IMG/VR virus record: IMGVR_UViG_3300036772_000289
Location: 1-32,142 of that record
DNA length: 32,142 nucleotides
Source: a virus
Direction: 5' to 3' (one strand)
Below the pieces are notes generated by a model. It worked only from the letters and a program-made list of their open reading frames with translations, was not told where the DNA came from and did no database searches. The translations under genes and the position numbers were made by a program. Below are positions 4,275-31,979 of this stretch, in pieces (positions within the stretch are counted from its first letter, which is position 1; each line of letters starts with the position of its first letter).

Positions 4275-4304
4275 TTGATTCACCAAAAATGCCTGTGCTA
4301 TGAT
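4275..4304 (+). promoter_or_regulatory. sigma70-type promoter of the rightward island
   Basis: TTGATT (4275-4280), an 18-base spacer and TATGAT (4299-4304). Transcription should start near 4311-4312, exactly at an ATG, so the first gene would be translated from a leaderless or near-leaderless message. This promoter points against the surrounding late operon. Confidence 0.6.
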
Positions 4305-4311
4305 GCGGCAC

Positions 4312-4500
4312 ATGCAAAACAGCTCAACCGACACTCGCCTCAATACAAAGCAAGTTGCCGCGCTATTGAAGGTGACGCCAACGACAGTGGCCAACTGGCG
4401 CAAGCAGAAGATCGGCCCGCGCTGGTATCGGCGAGTGCGGAAGGTCTTCTACTTAAAGGCCGATGTAGAGAACTGGGAATTCAGTAATCCGGGGGATTAG
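4312..4500 (+). CDS. small helix-turn-helix DNA-binding protein (excisionase/MerR-like)
   Basis: A 62-residue protein. LNTKQVAALLKVTPTTVANW (residues 10-29) is a helix-turn-helix of the HTH_17/excisionase type, followed by a basic wing-like stretch (GPRWYRRVRKVFYLKADVENW). ATGs at 4300 and 4303 are in frame but lie inside the predicted -10 element, so 4312 is preferred. It is the first gene of the rightward island and probably regulates it, by analogy with small phage DNA-binding proteins. An Xis- or Cox-like role is possible, but no integrase is in the window. Confidence 0.78.
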   Translation: MQNSSTDTRLNTKQVAALLKVTPTTVANWRKQKIGPRWYRRVRKVFYLKADVENWEFSNPGD

Positions 4501-4534
4501 CCCCCCTTGACATACGCCGGGCACAGGCCCACCT

Positions 4535-4720
4535 ATGCGCGCAGTGGCCAGAATGATCGCAACCGAGCTCAAGCTGCCTCGGGAACTTATCGAGAAGATC
4601 GACGAGTTTCGGGCCAAGCAGCCCATTAAGCCGACAAGGTCAGCGGCCATCCGATACCTGATCGATCTTGGCCTCGATCACGCCACCACACCTCACCGTA
4701 CCTCACCCAACGTCAAGTGA
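4535..4720 (+). CDS. ribbon-helix-helix (Arc/CopG-like) protein
   Basis: A 61-residue protein. IATELKLPRELIEKIDEFRA (from residue 8) followed by TRSAAIRYLIDLGLDHA matches the beta-strand, helix, helix layout of CopG/Arc/MetJ repressors. The start may be 4535 or the ATG at 4553 (MIATEL). A TTGACA lies at 4507-4512 but no convincing -10 was found. Its last dozen codons (TTPHRTSPNVK) are written by the first NNCAC array, so the gene's tail and the array overlap. RHH proteins such as plasmid omega and ParG bind contiguous short direct repeats, which makes this gene a candidate reader of the arrays. Confidence 0.75.
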   Translation: MRAVARMIATELKLPRELIEKIDEFRAKQPIKPTRSAAIRYLIDLGLDHATTPHRTSPNVK

Positions 4721-4741
4721 CATCACGCCACCTCACAACAC
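4677..4741 (+). repeat. pentanucleotide array A (NNCAC)n, 13 units
   Basis: Thirteen consecutive five-base units in one phase, nine with an exact CAC core (atCAC, gcCAC, caCAC, ctCAC and so on). Imperfect units are cgTAC, ccAAC, gtCAA and gtGAC. It covers the end of the RHH gene and stops just before the AAAGGA ribosome site of the next gene. The two leading bases vary while CAC stays fixed. The period is not a multiple of three, so the pattern is not dictated by protein coding. Confidence 0.85.
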
Positions 4742-4756
4742 GAAAGGATCATCCAA

Positions 4757-5362
4757 ATGCCATTATCAATCGTCACCGCGCACATTCATCTACGAAGTAA
4801 GGCCGCGTATACGCAGTCTCGCAAGTACGAAGAGGCAAAACTTGAAGGAGAGCAACCAGACGATTACGATCGCCGCAATTGGCGCAAGCATCTACACGTC
4901 AAGCAACACCACGATGGCCGTCAGACCGTGTTTATTCCTGGTCGCGCCGTTCACTTTTGTCTGATCGATGCCGCCAAATACTCTATGCGGAAGATTTCCG
5001 CAAACTACACGTGGACAAAGAAGTTTGAGTCCGGCATCGCAATCCCCGATGACCTTGACCTCGGAATTGACCCGGCGAAGGTTGATTTCATTGACATCAA
5101 CGCGCACTCAAACGGCAAGCGCGGATCGGCTTCCAGGGTTACGAGGCGATTGCCGATCATCCCGGCGTGGCAAGCCGATTTTGTTGCGATGATCCTTGAT
5201 CCAATCATAACTGAAGATGTTTTCCATGAAATGCTGGAAATAGGTGGGCTATTCATCGGCTTGGGCCAAAACCGTCCGCAGAACGGCGGCTCTTCTGGGC
5301 GTTTTGAGATTGTCGCCATCGATTGGAATGCTGCCCTACAGCCCGTCAGGAAGGCGGCGTAA
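4757..5362 (+). CDS. RAMP/Cas7-like candidate protein of the array island
   Basis: A 201-residue protein. Features suggesting the RAMP (Cas5/6/7) superfamily are an opening strand SIVTAHIHLRSKAAY; a VFIPGRAVHFCLIDAAKY block (58-75), comparable to the IPGSSLKGALR motif of Cas7-type proteins; and a late glycine-rich segment, GLFIGLGQNRP then NGGSSGRFEI (164-185), comparable to the terminal G-rich loop. Between them lie a conserved-looking INAHSNGKRG loop (114-123) and ILDPIITEDVFHEMLEIGG. I recall similar proteins of unknown function in other phages, but this is memory, not a search. No nuclease residues stand out, so nucleic-acid binding is more likely than catalysis. The gene lies between arrays A and B with an AAAGGA ribosome site. 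Confidence 0.72.
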   Translation: MPLSIVTAHIHLRSKAAYTQSRKYEEAKLEGEQPDDYDRRNWRKHLHVKQHHDGRQTVFIPGRAVHFCLIDAAKYSMRKISANYTWTKKFESGIAIPDDLDLGIDPAKVDFIDINAHSNGKRGSASRVTRRLPIIPAWQADFVAMILDPIITEDVFHEMLEIGGLFIGLGQNRPQNGGSSGRFEIVAIDWNAALQPVRKAA

Positions 5363-5375
5363 GCCCCACTACTTC

Positions 5376-5465
5376 GACGCAACACAACACGTCACGATAC
5401 CCTAACTCACGACACCAGACAACACCCCACGCCAATATACGACACCGCACTTCACGCCACGACAC
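5376..5465 (+). repeat. pentanucleotide array B (NNCAC)n, 18 units
   Basis: Eighteen five-base units in unbroken phase between the RAMP-like and winged-helix-like genes. Twelve have an exact CAC core. The rest differ by one or two bases in the core (gaCGC, gaTAC, ccTAA, caGAC, gcCAA, taTAC). The run gacgcaacacaacac at 5376-5390 is identical to 6031-6045 in array C. The array ends just before the AAAGGA ribosome site of the following gene, so it would form most of that gene's upstream untranslated RNA. Confidence 0.9.
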
Positions 5466-5488
5466 ATCCCCCGAGAAAGGAACCGGCG

Positions 5489-5998
5489 ATGCGTACCACC
5501 ATCAATTCCGCCGCAATCAGGGACACGACCCGCGCGATTGCCGACCTGTTTCACGCCGCCTCAGTGGATGAAGTTGTTTCACACGATCAGATCAAAGCCC
5601 TGATCCCAGCTGGTCTACAACATATCAGCCACTACATTTTCGCCCACAGGGCCTTTAAACTTCTTAACAAAGAACACGGACTCGTGTTCGCCACGGTGCC
5701 CCGCGAGGGATATCGTCGTATGCGGCACGTCACTGGCGCTCAGTACACGGTTGATAAAATGCTGAGAAGGACACGGCGGGTTTGTCGGAAGGGCCAAACT
5801 GTGGCGACAAGCGCGATCTCGTTTGCCAACGACGCTACGCCAAGCGAGCGTCGCCAAGTTTATCAGGGCATAAATCTAGGCGGTTTACTAGAGCATCTCG
5901 CGACCTTGAGGACGGCCAAGTCCATGCCAGAAGAACCGCCGCGACCGAAGCCAGACAACTTCTCTTGGCTACGTGAGATGATGGGCGGGCCAAACTAA
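5489..5998 (+). CDS. winged-helix-like protein of the array island, function unknown
   Basis: A 169-residue protein. The N-terminal part is helical (AIADLFHAASVDEVVSHDQI, then SHYIFAHRAFKLLNKEHG), followed by LVFATVPREGYRRM (about 66-79), which resembles the beta-wing and GYR end of winged-helix DNA-binding domains. The middle is strongly basic (KMLRRTRRVCRKGQ, 90-103). The C-terminal third is helical with a polar proline-rich linker. The AAGGA ribosome site lies directly after array B. It is probably a nucleic-acid-binding partner of the RAMP-like protein or the array; the fold call is tentative. Confidence 0.72.
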   Translation: MRTTINSAAIRDTTRAIADLFHAASVDEVVSHDQIKALIPAGLQHISHYIFAHRAFKLLNKEHGLVFATVPREGYRRMRHVTGAQYTVDKMLRRTRRVCRKGQTVATSAISFANDATPSERRQVYQGINLGGLLEHLATLRTAKSMPEEPPRPKPDNFSWLREMMGGPN

Positions 5999-6005
5999 TT
6001 ACCAT

Positions 6006-6155
6006 CACACTACACCGCACCGCACTTCACGACGCAACACAACACTACAACGCACCGCACGGCATGACACTTCACTTCACGACACAACACCGCACGACAC
6101 TTCACATTACCTCACGACACCACAACCCACGACACTTCACTTTACAACACAACAC
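6006..6155 (+). repeat. pentanucleotide array C (NNCAC)n, 30 units
   Basis: Thirty five-base units in perfect phase filling the whole space between two convergent genes. Twenty-four have an exact CAC core; the exceptions (gaCGC, taCAA, ggCAT, atTAC, caCAA, ttTAC) each differ by one base. The leading dinucleotide is far from random: aa, cg, tt and ga account for most units. From 6001 to 6155 the plus strand has only about 14 G residues, so a transcript would be C/A-rich and weakly structured. No terminator hairpin is visible inside it. Confidence 0.93.
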
Positions 6156-6158
6156 ACT

Positions 6159-7856
6159 TTAATGCCCTCCGCCGGGATGCCCGCGCCCGTGCTGAAAAAA
6201 TTCCGGATGTTCAACCATGAGTTTTTGCCGTTCTTCCTGGCGATGCTTCAGACGCCGCAGTTTCTGGTCCTTGTTCGGGAACGGCAGATCTTCGATTGCG
6301 TCCTCCGGCCCCAGCACTCCTGATTTTACGCCCCACGCAATCAGCTGGGCATGATCATCATGATAAATCGGCGAGGATGAGTGCGAATCGACCGCAATCT
6401 GCCGATCCTCTGGAAGCTGCGACAATAGAAAGTCCGTCTCGCCCTTGTCGGCGTCGGTCCAATAAACCGTGGCGTCTTTGGCTTGGACGATCGCCAAGGT
6501 ATCATCTGCGGCAGCGGCACACTGCCGCTCGATTAAGAGAGAGCGGTCGCGTAGCCGCGGGCTGCCGGTTTTCATCAGGGTGTCGGCATGGACGCCGGCC
6601 CGCACGCCAGGCTCTCCCTGGCCGCTCATGATCGGCGGAAAGCCCGTCGCGCGCTCCATTAGACCGATGATTTCCCCGATGATCGGGATCAGTTCTGGCG
6701 GCAGCGGGGGCGTGATATCCTTGACATCGGACCCGCCCGGCAAACCAATATAACCAGACTGTCGGAACTTCCCATAGAGCTCATCGGTAATGCCGTCATG
6801 GCCCGGGAAGGCGAGTATCCTGTCAACCTGGAGTCCTACTAGCCGCTTCGAATCCTCTAGGTGCGTGCTCAGCCAGTCCTGCAGCAGCATCAGATCGGTA
6901 ATCTCCGATCGCCCCCACACATAACCGGCGACGTAATTCGGTTGGATCATCGAGTACGGGTGCCGCTCGGGCACGAAGAGGTTGCAGTGCTTGAAGAGGG
7001 GAGCGACAAGGATATCCGGCTCGATCAATTGGATGGTCGTGTAATCCTCGCCTCCCCGCGCGTCGTCGCGGATATAAATCTCATGCATCGGATAGAGGTT
7101 GATGTTCGGTCGCGGCGACAGCGGGGTCATGTTGGGATCGTTGCCGAGGTTGACGATTCCGCCGGGGTTAGGCTGTGTGGCGTTTCGCAGACTCGTATCC
7201 AGGATCGCCGTCGACAAAACCTGATGCATGAAGGTCCGCGGGACGCCCGTGCGATCTTCCTTGTCGCCTTTGGCGAGAATCCTCTTATAGGTCCTCTCCG
7301 CATTGGGAAGGTTGCGGATGCGGCGCCACACTTCATGCCGGTTTAACCACACCGTCTCGACCAGCGCCTCCTGCTTGTCGAGATCATTTATCCCTTCATC
7401 ATAGACGCCGAAGGCCCACGGCGGCACCAATTGGCCGCCACGGTAATAATAGGCCCCGTCCGCGGTCTTGCCGGCGAGTTGTTTCAAGAGATAGGAGCCG
7501 TAGGTAAGCGCCTCCTTAACCCCAACTCCGAACAGGATGTCGATATTCTTGTTTTGCCATTCGAGTGATACGAGCCGGGCGGCCACGGCGCCTTTGTCTA
7601 ACCATTCTTGAGGATAGATGTTTTCGTAATTCATGCCAAAGCGCAGCTCAGTCGGCGAGAACAGGTGCGAGGCTGTTCTGTCTACGTGGCCATACATAAG
7701 ATTGGCGAGCGCCAGACCGCCCTTCGGCTTACCGGTCTCAACCCAGGTTCCGAACGACCGATAGGTGGAGGCTCGCGTGGCTTGCCCTTCGGTGCAGGCA
7801 TCGATGATTTCGAGCGCCATCTTTGTCAGGCGTTTTGCGTCGGTTGGCAATCTCAC
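6159..7856 (-). CDS. portal protein
   Basis: About 565 residues. The protein has the portal pattern: helical N-terminal region (ASTYRSFGTWVETGKPKGG), beta-rich clip/wing segment with AGYVWGRSEI, the long helix LLQDWLSTHLEDSKRLVGLQ (near 320-340), and a later helical region (LPPELIPIIGEIIGLMERAT, then RDRSLLIERQCAAAADDTLA). The portal is the dodecameric DNA channel at one capsid vertex. The open frame extends to 8063, but that part lies inside the upstream spike gene, so I prefer GTG at 7856; ATG at 7820 is the alternative. It ends on array C. Confidence 0.85.
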   Translation of the reverse strand: MRLPTDAKRLTKMALEIIDACTEGQATRASTYRSFGTWVETGKPKGGLALANLMYGHVDRTASHLFSPTELRFGMNYENIYPQEWLDKGAVAARLVSLEWQNKNIDILFGVGVKEALTYGSYLLKQLAGKTADGAYYYRGGQLVPPWAFGVYDEGINDLDKQEALVETVWLNRHEVWRRIRNLPNAERTYKRILAKGDKEDRTGVPRTFMHQVLSTAILDTSLRNATQPNPGGIVNLGNDPNMTPLSPRPNINLYPMHEIYIRDDARGGEDYTTIQLIEPDILVAPLFKHCNLFVPERHPYSMIQPNYVAGYVWGRSEITDLMLLQDWLSTHLEDSKRLVGLQVDRILAFPGHDGITDELYGKFRQSGYIGLPGGSDVKDITPPLPPELIPIIGEIIGLMERATGFPPIMSGQGEPGVRAGVHADTLMKTGSPRLRDRSLLIERQCAAAADDTLAIVQAKDATVYWTDADKGETDFLLSQLPEDRQIAVDSHSSSPIYHDDHAQLIAWGVKSGVLGPEDAIEDLPFPNKDQKLRRLKHRQEERQKLMVEHPEFFQHGRGHPGGGH

Positions 7857-23696: not shown

Positions 23697-24420
23697 GCAT
23701 GGCGGCAACGACGCCGCCATGGCCCGCATCGTTGCGGCCGGATCGCGCTTGGCCATTGCCGCCTTGACGCTTGGCGAGAGTACGGCAACGGTCTTTCCAG
23801 GTGAGTGACCAATCAACTCGTTTGACATTCTTTCCGCCTTCGTAACACCAGTAGTTGCGCCATTCCGGCAATAAGTCGTCAGGGTTCAGCCCACGCTCCT
23901 CGGCGTAGGTGCGGTCGCTTTCGTCCGGTTCCCAATCCTCAGGCAGCGTCGTCGCCTTTGGTTTGGGCTTCGCGCGCGCGGAGTCTGCGTCAGCAGACAT
24001 CCTCCTTTCTTCCTTTCTTTCTTCTTTCTTTCCTTCCTTATAGTTTGTATCGGGTGGTGTATCGGTTGTGTATCGGTTGTGTATCGGTTGTGTATCGGGT
24101 CCTGTATCGGCTAGGTGAATCGGTAGCTGATATTTGCTGTAATTACAGATGGTTATGATCGTGCATGCTGTATCGGTTGTGTATCGGATCATCTCCGCCT
24201 TCTGCGCGGCAGCCAACCATCGCTGTATCGCCGGGACGGACCATCGCCAAGCCATTGCCAAGAAGCGAAAAGACGTTCGAATCTGTCCGCGATCCAGCCC
24301 ATTGTGCGGCGCAAACGCTGCATTTTCGATGAGCCACACCCATGCCGCTCTACGGCAATACGGCTCACGCCCAAAGACCGCCTTATCATACCATCCCCGT
24401 TGCATGCGGTAGAAGCTCAC
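23653..24420 (-). CDS. O-like replication initiator (replisome organiser)
   Basis: 255 residues. The N-terminal part (YRMQRGWYDKAVFGREPYCR, then RRAAWVWLIENAAF) with the following RGQIRTSFRFLAMAWRW is the winged-helix start of a common phage initiator family. A repeat-encoded linker (about 100-145) with a lysine/glutamate-rich stretch separates it from a C-terminal domain ending DLLPEWRNYWCYEGGKN and WSLTWKDRCR. It should bind iterons and recruit helicase. GTG start at 24420 with AGGGGGA upstream. The iterons lie in the linker-coding DNA, as in lambda O. Confidence 0.8.
   Translation of the reverse strand: MSFYRMQRGWYDKAVFGREPYCRRAAWVWLIENAAFAPHNGLDRGQIRTSFRFLAMAWRWSVPAIQRWLAAAQKAEMIRYTTDTACTIITICNYSKYQLPIHLADTGPDTQPIHNRYTTDTPPDTNYKEGKKEERKEERRMSADADSARAKPKPKATTLPEDWEPDESDRTYAEERGLNPDDLLPEWRNYWCYEGGKNVKRVDWSLTWKDRCRTLAKRQGGNGQARSGRNDAGHGGVVAAMRELWLEENDGCLPH
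24003..24187. other. replication origin: TGTATCGG iterons plus polypyrimidine tract
   Basis: TGTATCGG occurs at 24046, 24058, 24069, 24080, 24091, 24103, 24169 and 24180, mostly 11-12 bases apart (about one helical turn), with near-copies at 24116 (TGAATCGG) and about 24223. Next to them, 24003-24039 is almost pure T/C on the plus strand (TTTCTTCCTTTCTTTC and so on), an easily melted asymmetric tract. Iterons plus such a tract inside the initiator gene is the lambda ori layout. Confidence 0.78.
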
Positions 24421-25397: not shown

Positions 25398-25575
25398 TGC
25401 TGTCGTCCTCTCTCGGTGGGTTGCTGATGTCGGCGCGGTCCAGTAGCTTATAGAGAGTCTTGTGCTCACCTTTCTTCAATCGGCCCGCGAGGTATAATTC
25501 CTGCAATGCGTCGGTAAGTGCGACATCTTCCATTGTGCGGTGACTGCGCCCGCCCGGCACATACAAACCTTTCAC
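25288..25575 (-). CDS. hypothetical protein with long 3' overlap
   Basis: 95 residues. The first part (MKGLYVPGGRSHRTMEDVAL, then DALQELYLAGRLKKGEHKTL) looks like a real helical protein. The last third (from about DSNGYGEDHTT) is read from DNA that also encodes the next gene and looks less natural. GTG start overlaps the RusA stop as GTGA. Either a genuine long overlap or a lost stop/frameshift extended the frame. Confidence 0.55.
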   Translation of the reverse strand: MKGLYVPGGRSHRTMEDVALTDALQELYLAGRLKKGEHKTLYKLLDRADISNPPREDDSNGYGEDHTTHRESPAGMGTPSRTGVRGMHHRALTDR

Positions 25576-25925
25576 CAGATGGCCTCTATCATAATGCCGG
25601 GATTCATGCTCCAGCGCTTCTCTGCCCAGATTGACCAGACATGACCGTCTTGCGCGAACAGCGCGTCTAGGAGCGCCTTCAAGAGATTATCGATGTCAGG
25701 CCGTACGGTGTGGGGTTCGCCGTCCATTGCGATTTTTTTGATCCCCGACCAACTCGCCGGTATCGGCATAAAGAAAATCACTCTGCCCGGCATGGGGATC
25801 TTGATCTTCTGCAACTGCAATTCAGCGCGAAATTTCCAATACGCCAACACGACAGGCCGCTCCTTCCACTTATCAGCGCGCGTCATGCGCGGTGCCGCCA
25901 TTGGCGCGATCGGGTAAAATGTCAC
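25572..25925 (-). CDS. rusA: RusA-family Holliday-junction resolvase
   Basis: 117 residues, the normal length of the family. The opening strand FYPIAPMAAPRMTRADKW is followed by PHTVRPDIDNLLKALLDALF (71-90), with the catalytic aspartates at about 77, 79 and 93 (QDGHVW), and AEKRWSMNPGIMIEAI. It cuts branched DNA arising in replication and recombination. GTG start at 25925 overlaps the stop of the membrane protein by four bases; the longer frame to 26054 is a shadow of that gene. Confidence 0.88.
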   Translation of the reverse strand: MTFYPIAPMAAPRMTRADKWKERPVVLAYWKFRAELQLQKIKIPMPGRVIFFMPIPASWSGIKKIAMDGEPHTVRPDIDNLLKALLDALFAQDGHVWSIWAEKRWSMNPGIMIEAIW

Positions 25926-26092
25926 ACTGGCCACGCAATAGAGAGAGCCGCGTTGATCATCATGCGACCGATGATCCAAAGCGCCTCCGCGATTACAATA
26001 ACCACTAATAGCGCGAGTATCCACCACGCGCCCGGCCGCGGAGCAGCGTCGCATTCGGTCTGCTCAATGTGGAGATGAGGGTCGTGCATCAT
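25922..26092 (-). CDS. 56-residue membrane protein
   Basis: MMHDPHLHIEQTECDAAPRP, then one membrane segment (WWILALLVVIVIAEALWIIG). The stop overlaps the RusA start as GTGA. ATGs at 26092 and 26089 follow GGAAG. Function unknown; single-pass small proteins are common in phage early operons. Confidence 0.58.
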   Translation of the reverse strand: MMHDPHLHIEQTECDAAPRPGAWWILALLVVIVIAEALWIIGRMMINAALSIAWPV

Positions 26093-29787: not shown

Positions 29788-29972
29788 CGGACAGTGTGAT
29801 CGCTCTCGACACCACGCGCGCCGCAATCGAGGAGGCCCTCGATGCCGCCCGCGACCAACTGGCCGCCTTCGAGCATCAAAAATTCGCACGCCAAGATTGG
29901 ATCGGCATCACGCGGCGCCGGGTCTCGATCCTGGAAGCTCAACTCAGCGCATGGGATCGGGCGGCGGTATGA
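29784..29972 (+). CDS. small coiled-coil protein
   Basis: 62 residues: LDTTRAAIEEALDAARDQLA, then AFEHQKFARQDWIGITRRRV and SILEAQLSAWDR. Two helices likely forming a hairpin or dimer. Coupled by ATGA to the exonuclease gene, so it may assist recombination; inference only. Confidence 0.64.
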   Translation: MTDSVIALDTTRAAIEEALDAARDQLAAFEHQKFARQDWIGITRRRVSILEAQLSAWDRAAV

Positions 29973-31021
29973 ACAAGATCACTGCGGCAACTCCCAATGC
30001 CGCCAGTGAGGCGGGGCCGGAGACGGCGTACCCCCCCAGTCCCAATCCGGTCCCGCCGACCGAACAAGCCGGGCTTCCTATCTTTCAGGAGAGCTATCAC
30101 GGCGAGAGCGGAAACTCTATTCCCGAACATCCCAAGGGCATCCCTTTGGCCGAAAGAAGAAATGCACAGGAGTTACTGGCCCAAAATACCGCCCTCGGGA
30201 TCATCAAAAAGGATGCGGCGTGGCACGCCAACCGCCGGCTCGGGATCGGCGGATCTGACGCCAACAAAATCATGAGCGGGCGTTGGCTGGAGGTGTGGAT
30301 GGTCAAAACCGGCCGCGCCGAGGACGAGGACCTCTCCGATGTTCTCGCCGTTCAGATGGGCGTGGTGACTGAGGATTTGAATCTTGCTTGGTTCCAGAAA
30401 CAGACTAAGCGCGTAGTTGTTGGACGGAAGGCCGAGGTCAAGCATGCGTATTATAGCTTCATGCGAGCAGAACTCGACGGTGCGGTCTGGGAGCCCAATG
30501 CGATCGTTGAAGCGAAGTGGTGTGGCGCCTTCAACAAGATCGAGGAAATCGAGCAGCGCTACATGGCGCAGTGCCATCACAACATGCTGGTTTGCGGATA
30601 TGATCGCGCATTTCTTTCGGTCATTACCGGCAAACCGACCTACGAGCTTGTCGAGATCCGCCGTGACGACGATTACGCCGCGACACTACTGCAGTACGAG
30701 GAAGATTTCTGGCGGTATGTCGAGCGGGACGAAGCGCCGCCGGATCGCGAAAGCGTTGCGGCTCCGGTTAAACCGTCTCCGACAAGAATAGTGTCGATTG
30801 ATCTCGAAAATCCTGGATCTAATTGGGAATATTCGATAATATCTCCGGTCAACGAGTACGTCGACACTTTCGATGCCGCCAAAAAGAACGGCACAGCCCG
30901 CGATAACATTAAGTCGATGCTTCCTGACGATGTCAGTCTATGCCGCGTTGGTTTGGTTGATCTCAAGCGTGACAAGAGAGGATCTCTGACGATATCTTTG
31001 GAAAGGTTGCGCAATGTCTGA
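29969..31021 (+). CDS. YqaJ/lambda-exonuclease-type recombination nuclease
   Basis: 350 residues from MNKITAATPN. After a 75-residue disordered tail come NRRLGIGGSDANKIMSG (89-105), GVVTEDLNLAW (131-141, with the motif E) and MRAELDGAVWEPNAIVEAKW (165-184), where Asp170, Glu181 and Lys183 form the D...ExK active site of the YqaJ/lambda Exo fold. It resects double-stranded ends to make single strands for the annealase encoded next. The C-terminal third (PVNEYVDTFDAAKKNGTARD) is a separate helical domain. Confidence 0.85.
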   Translation: MNKITAATPNAASEAGPETAYPPSPNPVPPTEQAGLPIFQESYHGESGNSIPEHPKGIPLAERRNAQELLAQNTALGIIKKDAAWHANRRLGIGGSDANKIMSGRWLEVWMVKTGRAEDEDLSDVLAVQMGVVTEDLNLAWFQKQTKRVVVGRKAEVKHAYYSFMRAELDGAVWEPNAIVEAKWCGAFNKIEEIEQRYMAQCHHNMLVCGYDRAFLSVITGKPTYELVEIRRDDDYAATLLQYEEDFWRYVERDEAPPDRESVAAPVKPSPTRIVSIDLENPGSNWEYSIISPVNEYVDTFDAAKKNGTARDNIKSMLPDDVSLCRVGLVDLKRDKRGSLTISLERLRNV

Positions 31022-31979
31022 ATATCACGACGGAGAAACTGGCGAGGTTGTGGAGACGCCGCGCGTCTCTGATACGCGCGTGCAGCGCGGTGCACTGCTG
31101 TCGTCACCCGAGACCGCCGAAGTATGGGGCGCGCTCGTCGAGGCACAAGGGAAGATCGAGCCGCCACAGCGCACCAAAACCGCAAAGGTCAAGGGTCGCA
31201 CCAAGGCTGGAGTAGACTACGAGTATGAATATAAATACGCGCCGCTCGATGAAGTGCTCAACAAGGCGCGCGGACCCCTGCAAGAAGCCGGCCTCGGGTT
31301 CCAGCAATATCTTGCGTCGCGCGGTAGTCAGTCCGTGGTGTGCACCGTTATATTCCACAAGTCGGGGCAATGGACGGCGGTTGATTATCCCATCTTTTAC
31401 GACGCCAGCAAGGGCGCGCAGGGCTTTGCGTCCGGCGTAACCTACGCTAGGCGCTACGGGCTCACGCTCGCGCTCGGAATCGCCCCTGAGGATGACGACG
31501 ACGCCAATGTGGCCGATTCCCAACCCGCAACCATATCGGAACGGTCGAAAGGCGTAACCCGCGCCGCCGCGCCGCGCCCTATAACAACGGCGATCCATCC
31601 CGCTACATCTGGCGCCGCTGGCTCATCTACTGGTAACGGCGCCCAGCTCGAATGGATACCCAAATTTCTCGCCCGCAAGAGCTACGAGATCGACGCGCAG
31701 AAGGCCGGCGGCTGGTCAGCCTTCGAAAGGCTTTACTGCGCGATCGCCGATGCGGCGGACGATCTCGACCAGCTCATGAAGCTCGACGATGACAACAAGC
31801 AGCAGTGCGTCGAGTTTTCGCGGGCAGTGAGGCCGGCCGTCTATGACCGCTTTCGCGAGCACGTAAAGGCCAATGCCCATCGTTTGGCGCCGACGCCGTT
31901 CGTCGAGGAATCCGATACGCCGTCCGTCCTCGATCAAATGGGGGAGGAGCGGCGGCAGAGTCAGGGGGGGGATGTTTGA
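31014..31979 (+). CDS. erf: ERF-family single-strand annealing protein
   Basis: 321 residues. The ERF core is visible: EYKYAPLDEVLNKARGPLQE (72-91), AGLGFQQYL, then VVCTVIFHKSGQWTAVDYPI and GFASGVTYARRYGLTLALGI followed by acidic APEDDDDAN. It anneals complementary single strands with the exonuclease encoded immediately upstream (eight-base overlap). The C-terminal region after a T/A/P linker (EWIPKFLARKSYEIDAQKAG) is a separate helical domain. Confidence 0.87.
   Translation: MSEYHDGETGEVVETPRVSDTRVQRGALLSSPETAEVWGALVEAQGKIEPPQRTKTAKVKGRTKAGVDYEYEYKYAPLDEVLNKARGPLQEAGLGFQQYLASRGSQSVVCTVIFHKSGQWTAVDYPIFYDASKGAQGFASGVTYARRYGLTLALGIAPEDDDDANVADSQPATISERSKGVTRAAAPRPITTAIHPATSGAAGSSTGNGAQLEWIPKFLARKSYEIDAQKAGGWSAFERLYCAIADAADDLDQLMKLDDDNKQQCVEFSRAVRPAVYDRFREHVKANAHRLAPTPFVEESDTPSVLDQMGEERRQSQGGDV

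Follow-up and report, generated by a model that had tools for sequence, protein, structure and literature searches.

A probable VIPR locus with CAC-core guide arrays in an uncultivated phage

Viral Interference Programmable Repeat (VIPR) systems combine a RAMP protein with vrRNAs built of pentamers in which GGY alternates with NN (PMC13142463, bioRxiv 2026). According to the main text of that paper, the NN dinucleotides pair with DNA in such a way that one target base per unit, mostly the wobble base, is skipped, and the systems act against competing phages and satellites (PMC13142463). Seven types are distinguished there, with GGY/NN "or a related consensus", and the arrangement is presented as a noncontiguous code for RNA guides that predates CRISPR (PMC13142463). 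Neither CAC nor CGC cores appear in the main text, the core consensus being detailed in the supplement; a literature search found no VIPR paper besides this one.

The window analysed here, a stretch of 32,142 nucleotides (positions 1 to 32,142 of IMG/VR virus record IMGVR_UViG_3300036772_000289), very probably carries a VIPR locus, in the wide sense of the VIPR family, with CAC-core guide arrays. Array A, vipr, array B, vap and array C follow one another in this order on one strand, as laid out below.

4535..4720, + strand: upstream ORF for a small repressor-like protein (61 aa, phrog_4738), overlapping most of array A with its 3′ end
4677..4741, + strand: array A, 13 NNCAC pentamers; putatively both a vrRNA and the vipr 5′ leader
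4757..5362, + strand: vipr homologue (p201, 201 aa, phrog_4652), between arrays A and B; RAMP/Cas7 fold
5376..5470, + strand: array B, 18–19 NNCAC-like pentamers, in the gap between vipr and vap
5489..5998, + strand: vap homologue (p169, 169 aa), between arrays B and C; predicted winged-helix DNA-binding accessory protein
6006..6155, + strand: array C, 30 NNCAC pentamers

As in the SUSP1/P. fulva type II VIPR of the published main text, a homologous RAMP-fold Vipr is here accompanied by vap on a phage genome, and pentamers with a constant trinucleotide and a hypervariable NN lie in arrays that flank the genes on the same strand. In SUSP1 and LESphi2, a sequence check confirmed arrays with GGT/GGC cores, arranged as in the window and likewise on the strand of vipr. 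The core is CAC in the window versus GGY in the type II description, which places the locus outside a subtype defined by a literal GGY. A structured 3′ tail, conserved in type II as published, is not detectable at the window arrays; arrays A and B abut start codons, whereas SUSP1 vrRNAs are free-standing; and array C has 30 units, versus the 9–16 reported for a single type II vrRNA. The locus is a member of the wider VIPR family, and not of the characterised GGY subtype. LESphi2 (OQ594955) likewise has, at P21_9/P21_8, a homologous vipr (30.6% identity over 67%), a vap and repeated vipr-strand arrays; unlike the window, it has a GGC core and is a temperate phage of Pseudomonas aeruginosa, in which P21_9/P21_8 are annotated as hypothetical proteins.

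Vipr proteins are small and of RAMP fold, with an RRM core and a glycine-rich loop. The 201-aa protein is, by sequence comparison, a Vipr homologue. A profile of 23 p201 homologues searched against the PDB had SUSP1 Vipr as its sole good match (36pp, E 7.8e-7), and hhalign against the same protein gave 95.7%. The top structural matches of the AlphaFold model (pLDDT 91) are all Csm3/Cas7 proteins (Foldseek E 2.6e-7; Z 12.9 over 171 residues), and the family keeps a G-rich loop, GxGxxRPxxGG, with G164, G168, G170, R173 and G181 invariant. This protein presumably binds the guide arrays. Its RAMP fold is that of the guide-binding subunit in the Cas7/Csm3 backbone of class 1 CRISPR-Cas, from which the locus differs in its single small protein and its 5-nt unit with two variable bases; identity as a CRISPR-Cas system was rejected, the locus having no long identical repeats separated by unique spacers. 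The vap product is homologous to SUSP1 vap (36 bits) and its family adjoins vipr in 74 of 80 loci; its AlphaFold model (pLDDT 90) has weak winged-helix matches in the PDB and suggests a DNA-binding accessory protein of that class. The repressor-like phrog_4738 ORF has a homologue in just one other array-bearing contig (L067).

The three arrays are alike: each lies on the + strand, in a gap adjoining vipr or vap. With up to two mismatches allowed, CACNNCACNNCACNNCAC matches the window 51 times against 2.75 expected, a count reached in none of 100 shuffles of the window. The NN string of array A is AT GC CA CT CG CT CC GT GT AT GC CT AA, and in array C the CAC core is perfect in 24 of the 30 units. 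Tail-like ...CACAA units suggest that array C may comprise two or three successive vrRNAs (units 1–9, 10–24 and 25–30). An earlier note on this DNA had proposed that the variable dinucleotides are drawn from a few allowed letters, about 27 of 30 units in array C being aa, cg, tt or ga. A recount lowers this figure to 22 of 30 (20 of 24 among perfect-core units). Departure from base composition, also raised in that note, holds for the share of the top four dinucleotides in array C (P=0.0007 when N1 is permuted against N2; P=0.004 relative to NN frequencies pooled over related arrays) but not for array A or B in the same composition test (P=0.84 and P=0.64). The bias is confined to array C. The 1263 units collected from other CAC arrays linked to vipr use every one of the 16 dinucleotides, at an entropy of 3.85 of 4 bits; pooled NNs of related arrays are thus nearly unrestricted, and a restricted alphabet was rejected as a general property of the arrays. 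The notion that each unit carries a letter survives in substance, NN being the coding element of VIPR guide RNAs as described in the main text (PMC13142463), although the alphabet is not one of few letters. The shared blocks are real: a 15-base block, gacgcaacacaacac, is identical in arrays B (5376) and C (6031), and the unit order TT-GA-AA at units 5–7 of array C returns at units 15–17. Three 3-unit words recur in this array (shuffle mean 0.59, P=0.026) but no 4-unit word does, so that the suggested growth by duplication of multi-unit blocks is weakly supported here; for whole modules in relatives the support is clear.

The association of such arrays with vipr was approached from both sides. 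An array-first scan, in which IMG/VR was searched for six exact CACNN units, returned plain microsatellites together with many contigs bearing heterogeneous arrays in several blocks 500–800 bp apart, and in more than 20 contigs p201 homologues lie directly between heterogeneous CAC arrays, always co-oriented with them. Among bacterial genomes, none of 119 CACNN stretches is accompanied by a vipr homologue, and almost none is heterogeneous; prophage copies amount to 2 distant matches in 754 bacterial genomes of two classes. A protein-first scan yielded 282 relatives in IMG/VR, the best 80 of which were examined on the vipr strand at period 5 with all 64 trinucleotide cores tried. Pentamer arrays are present on that strand in 74 of these 80 loci, with scores of 16–66, compared to at most 10.4 for control periods 4, 7 and 8. 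These observations bear on the idea that the arrays are neutral tandem repeats, produced by microsatellite-like slippage with drift of the dinucleotides. Partial unit duplications in array C would suit this idea, as would the many CAC arrays elsewhere that are true microsatellites with a single NN; it is nonetheless scarcely credible, as cores are conserved while NN entropy is nearly maximal, the bacterial stretches that lack vipr are nearly all simple repeats, and in the protein-first set arrays and vipr occur together almost without exception. Two contigs (L029:2007-2705 and L040:144-842) each carry five heterogeneous CAC arrays and no Vipr homologue detected in the stretch examined; a distant Vipr, or one outside the stretch, possibly serves them.

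The identity of the constant trinucleotide varies among these relatives. The best core is CGC in 47 of the 74 loci, CAC in 18, GGC in 7, and CTC and GAC in 1 each, and the complements never score best. Mapped on the vipr tree, the core is clustered yet repeatedly changed, with at least 16 changes versus 39.6 for shuffled labels, and well-supported branches alone force 6 changes for CGC and 3 for CAC. In this uncultivated phage family (the best 80 of 282 IMG/VR relatives), the constant part of the code is thus mostly CGC or CAC and not GGY, and, given the switches on the tree, it can be tested directly which residues of Vipr recognise the core. Residue 171, within the G-loop, is R in 36 of 36 CGC-core Viprs and Q in 20 of 33 CAC-core ones, and residue 176 is mostly K in the former and N in the latter. 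Both are candidate core-reading positions, though confounded by descent: core-correlated residues such as 171 Q/R and 176 N/K come with too few independent pairs to be separated from it. R63 and D99 are further candidates from this comparison.

The anatomy of the arrays in relatives points to the strand that is read. In four loci (L065, L072, L119 and L077), modules consist of 7–15 variable units followed by a constant end, either AACACGACACGACAA or GACAA with TTTTCC preceding the next module. Modules of the CGC clade have AACGGCCAGC... after the variable units and then a tail of two hairpins; among its 22 base pairs, 5 carry compensatory changes. One phage locus (L319:1483-4058) contains about 14 vrRNA modules, 12 of them with the covarying two-hairpin 3′ tail (R1). 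With variable units first and the 3′ end constant, modules have the polarity published for vrRNAs, by which the guide RNA would correspond to the vipr strand. This polarity also weighs on a reading of the arrays as binding sites in double-stranded DNA (iterons, operators or a partition site) for vap, the repressor-like protein or another phage protein. The 5-bp periodicity, by which two units come close to one helical turn, and the DNA-binding type genes alongside would fit such sites; yet binding sites need neither a constant orientation to a RAMP gene nor variable-then-constant modules, whereas every one of the 74 loci has its arrays in strict co-orientation with vipr. The covarying RNA hairpins that follow the CGC-clade arrays, and the fact that the gene constantly linked to the arrays encodes a RAMP-fold protein, likewise speak against them, and we regard this reading as highly improbable.

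At the window arrays themselves, no stable fold indicative of a structured 3′ tail follows any of the three (z 0.3 to 2.0), and the CGC-clade tail covariance model R1 has no match in the window. An Rfam scan including hammerhead ribozymes had no match in the window or in 15 related loci, and a promoter and terminator scan of window positions 4300-6400 found sites no commoner than in shuffles. Arrays A and B run up to the Shine–Dalgarno region of the next gene and end 15–20 nt before its start codon, with the vipr ATG 15 nt past the end of array A; in nearly all relative loci, the last unit lies 1–38 nt before the vipr start. Such placement, along with the unstructured nature of the repeats, is what would be expected if the arrays were primarily leader RNAs for autoregulation of the operon, Vipr polymerising on the NNCAC repeats ahead of the Shine–Dalgarno sequences of vipr and vap and blocking translation, with no guide function. 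As a full account this is unlikely. It leaves unexplained the hypervariable NN and the rapid turnover of NN strings, the 14 modules of L319, the arrays that follow vap with no downstream gene on that strand, and the codon-like NN statistics described below; a leader function could, moreover, coexist with a guide role. The earlier note had suggested comparing the pace at which unit order and flanking genes change, and in relatives NN strings prove to change far more quickly than vipr: where vipr genes are identical, loci have 61–100% of NN 4-mers in common, compared to mostly 0–15% for loci whose vipr genes are 91–93% identical at the DNA level. In L032:7600-7849, two arrays agree in their last 10–11 NN units and differ in the first ones, as though the guides had swapped 5′ ends; vipr is absent from the stretch examined there.

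The guide role favoured here entails a reading rule, which was addressed by a target-free test on 250 non-redundant NN strings (3439 units, ends trimmed) with a codon-phase Markov model whose training set was viral ORFs (1.21 Mb). Total log-likelihoods at skips of 0, 1, 2 and 3 are −9641, −9469, −9546 and −9515, so that skip 1 is best, and for all guides together it is the sole skip with the real order clearly ahead of shuffled orders (z 2.2, equalled by 1 of 60 shuffles). The third codon position is best supported as the skipped one (−9437 vs −9473 and −9774), and swapping N1 and N2 costs about 100 log-likelihood units, abolishing the fit. A simpler order-5 model gives the same sign at skip 1 (z 1.7; 7 of 100), with other skips negative. 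The order effect at skip 1 is modest and its exact numbers are model-dependent; its direction agrees with the published rule, and the NN statistics of the window family fit the one-nucleotide skip, with the wobble base skipped, given in the main text (PMC13142463). The mild bias of the pooled NNs looks like that of codon positions 1–2 of phage coding DNA. Within the window, a sense reading as codon positions 1–2 is weakly the best for arrays B and C, and for array A it ties with an antisense reading of positions 2–3. The test, which needs no targets, lends independent support to the skip-and-wobble rule.

Searches for the targets themselves found no natural target, with hits at the level of chance. 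Exact 8-unit NNx scans of IMG/VR with array A (units 2–9), B (5–12) and C (13–20) returned 15, 9 and 15 hits, and the same scan with an L043 guide returned 7; an all-against-all local target scan at skips 0–3 (0–4 in the first run) gave nothing significant, and the decoded peptide of array C has no match in phages. These results say little about whether targets exist, because the guides were partial, only exact matches were counted and the phage's competitor may be missing from the collections. Array 541 of L121 and the − strand of L383 (6258) do match over nine consecutive units with one base skipped; this was rejected as a target, about 0.25 such matches being expected by chance in the set searched.

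Taken with the published system, these features suggest how the locus may work. Once transcribed, the arrays would act as guide RNAs along which one Vipr subunit after another would hold the invariable CAC of each unit, exposing its NN for base pairing with DNA. With every unit passing over a single target base, the target would read NNxNNxNNx, x being mostly the wobble base, and the complex, by analogy with SUSP1, would silence genes of competing phages or satellites. For the window locus, we infer transcription, RNA processing, binding, silencing and target alike. The arrays may also have a regulatory role as operon leaders alongside their guide role. A bolder proposal, offered tentatively and perhaps rather likelier to fail than to hold, is that the repeated switches of the constant trinucleotide inside a single Vipr family (GGC, CGC, CAC, rarely CTC/GAC) have given rise to orthogonal VIPR codes, each legible to one Vipr clade alone, and that the tail-less CAC arrays serve in addition as operon leaders by which Vipr adjusts its own synthesis at the level of translation. 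The family around this locus offers potentially orthogonal guide systems.

Elsewhere in the window, the major head protein (1728-2771) is about 34% identical to those of two uncultured phages from Manatee Spring, with no close cultured relative among its matches. A RusA-like resolvase is encoded at 25572-26054, and a RecE-like exonuclease followed by an Erf-like annealing protein forms a phage recombination module at 29897-31979. At 24003-24110, an 11-base tandem repeat (TGTATCGGTTG, 5.7 copies) comes after a CTTT-rich tract.
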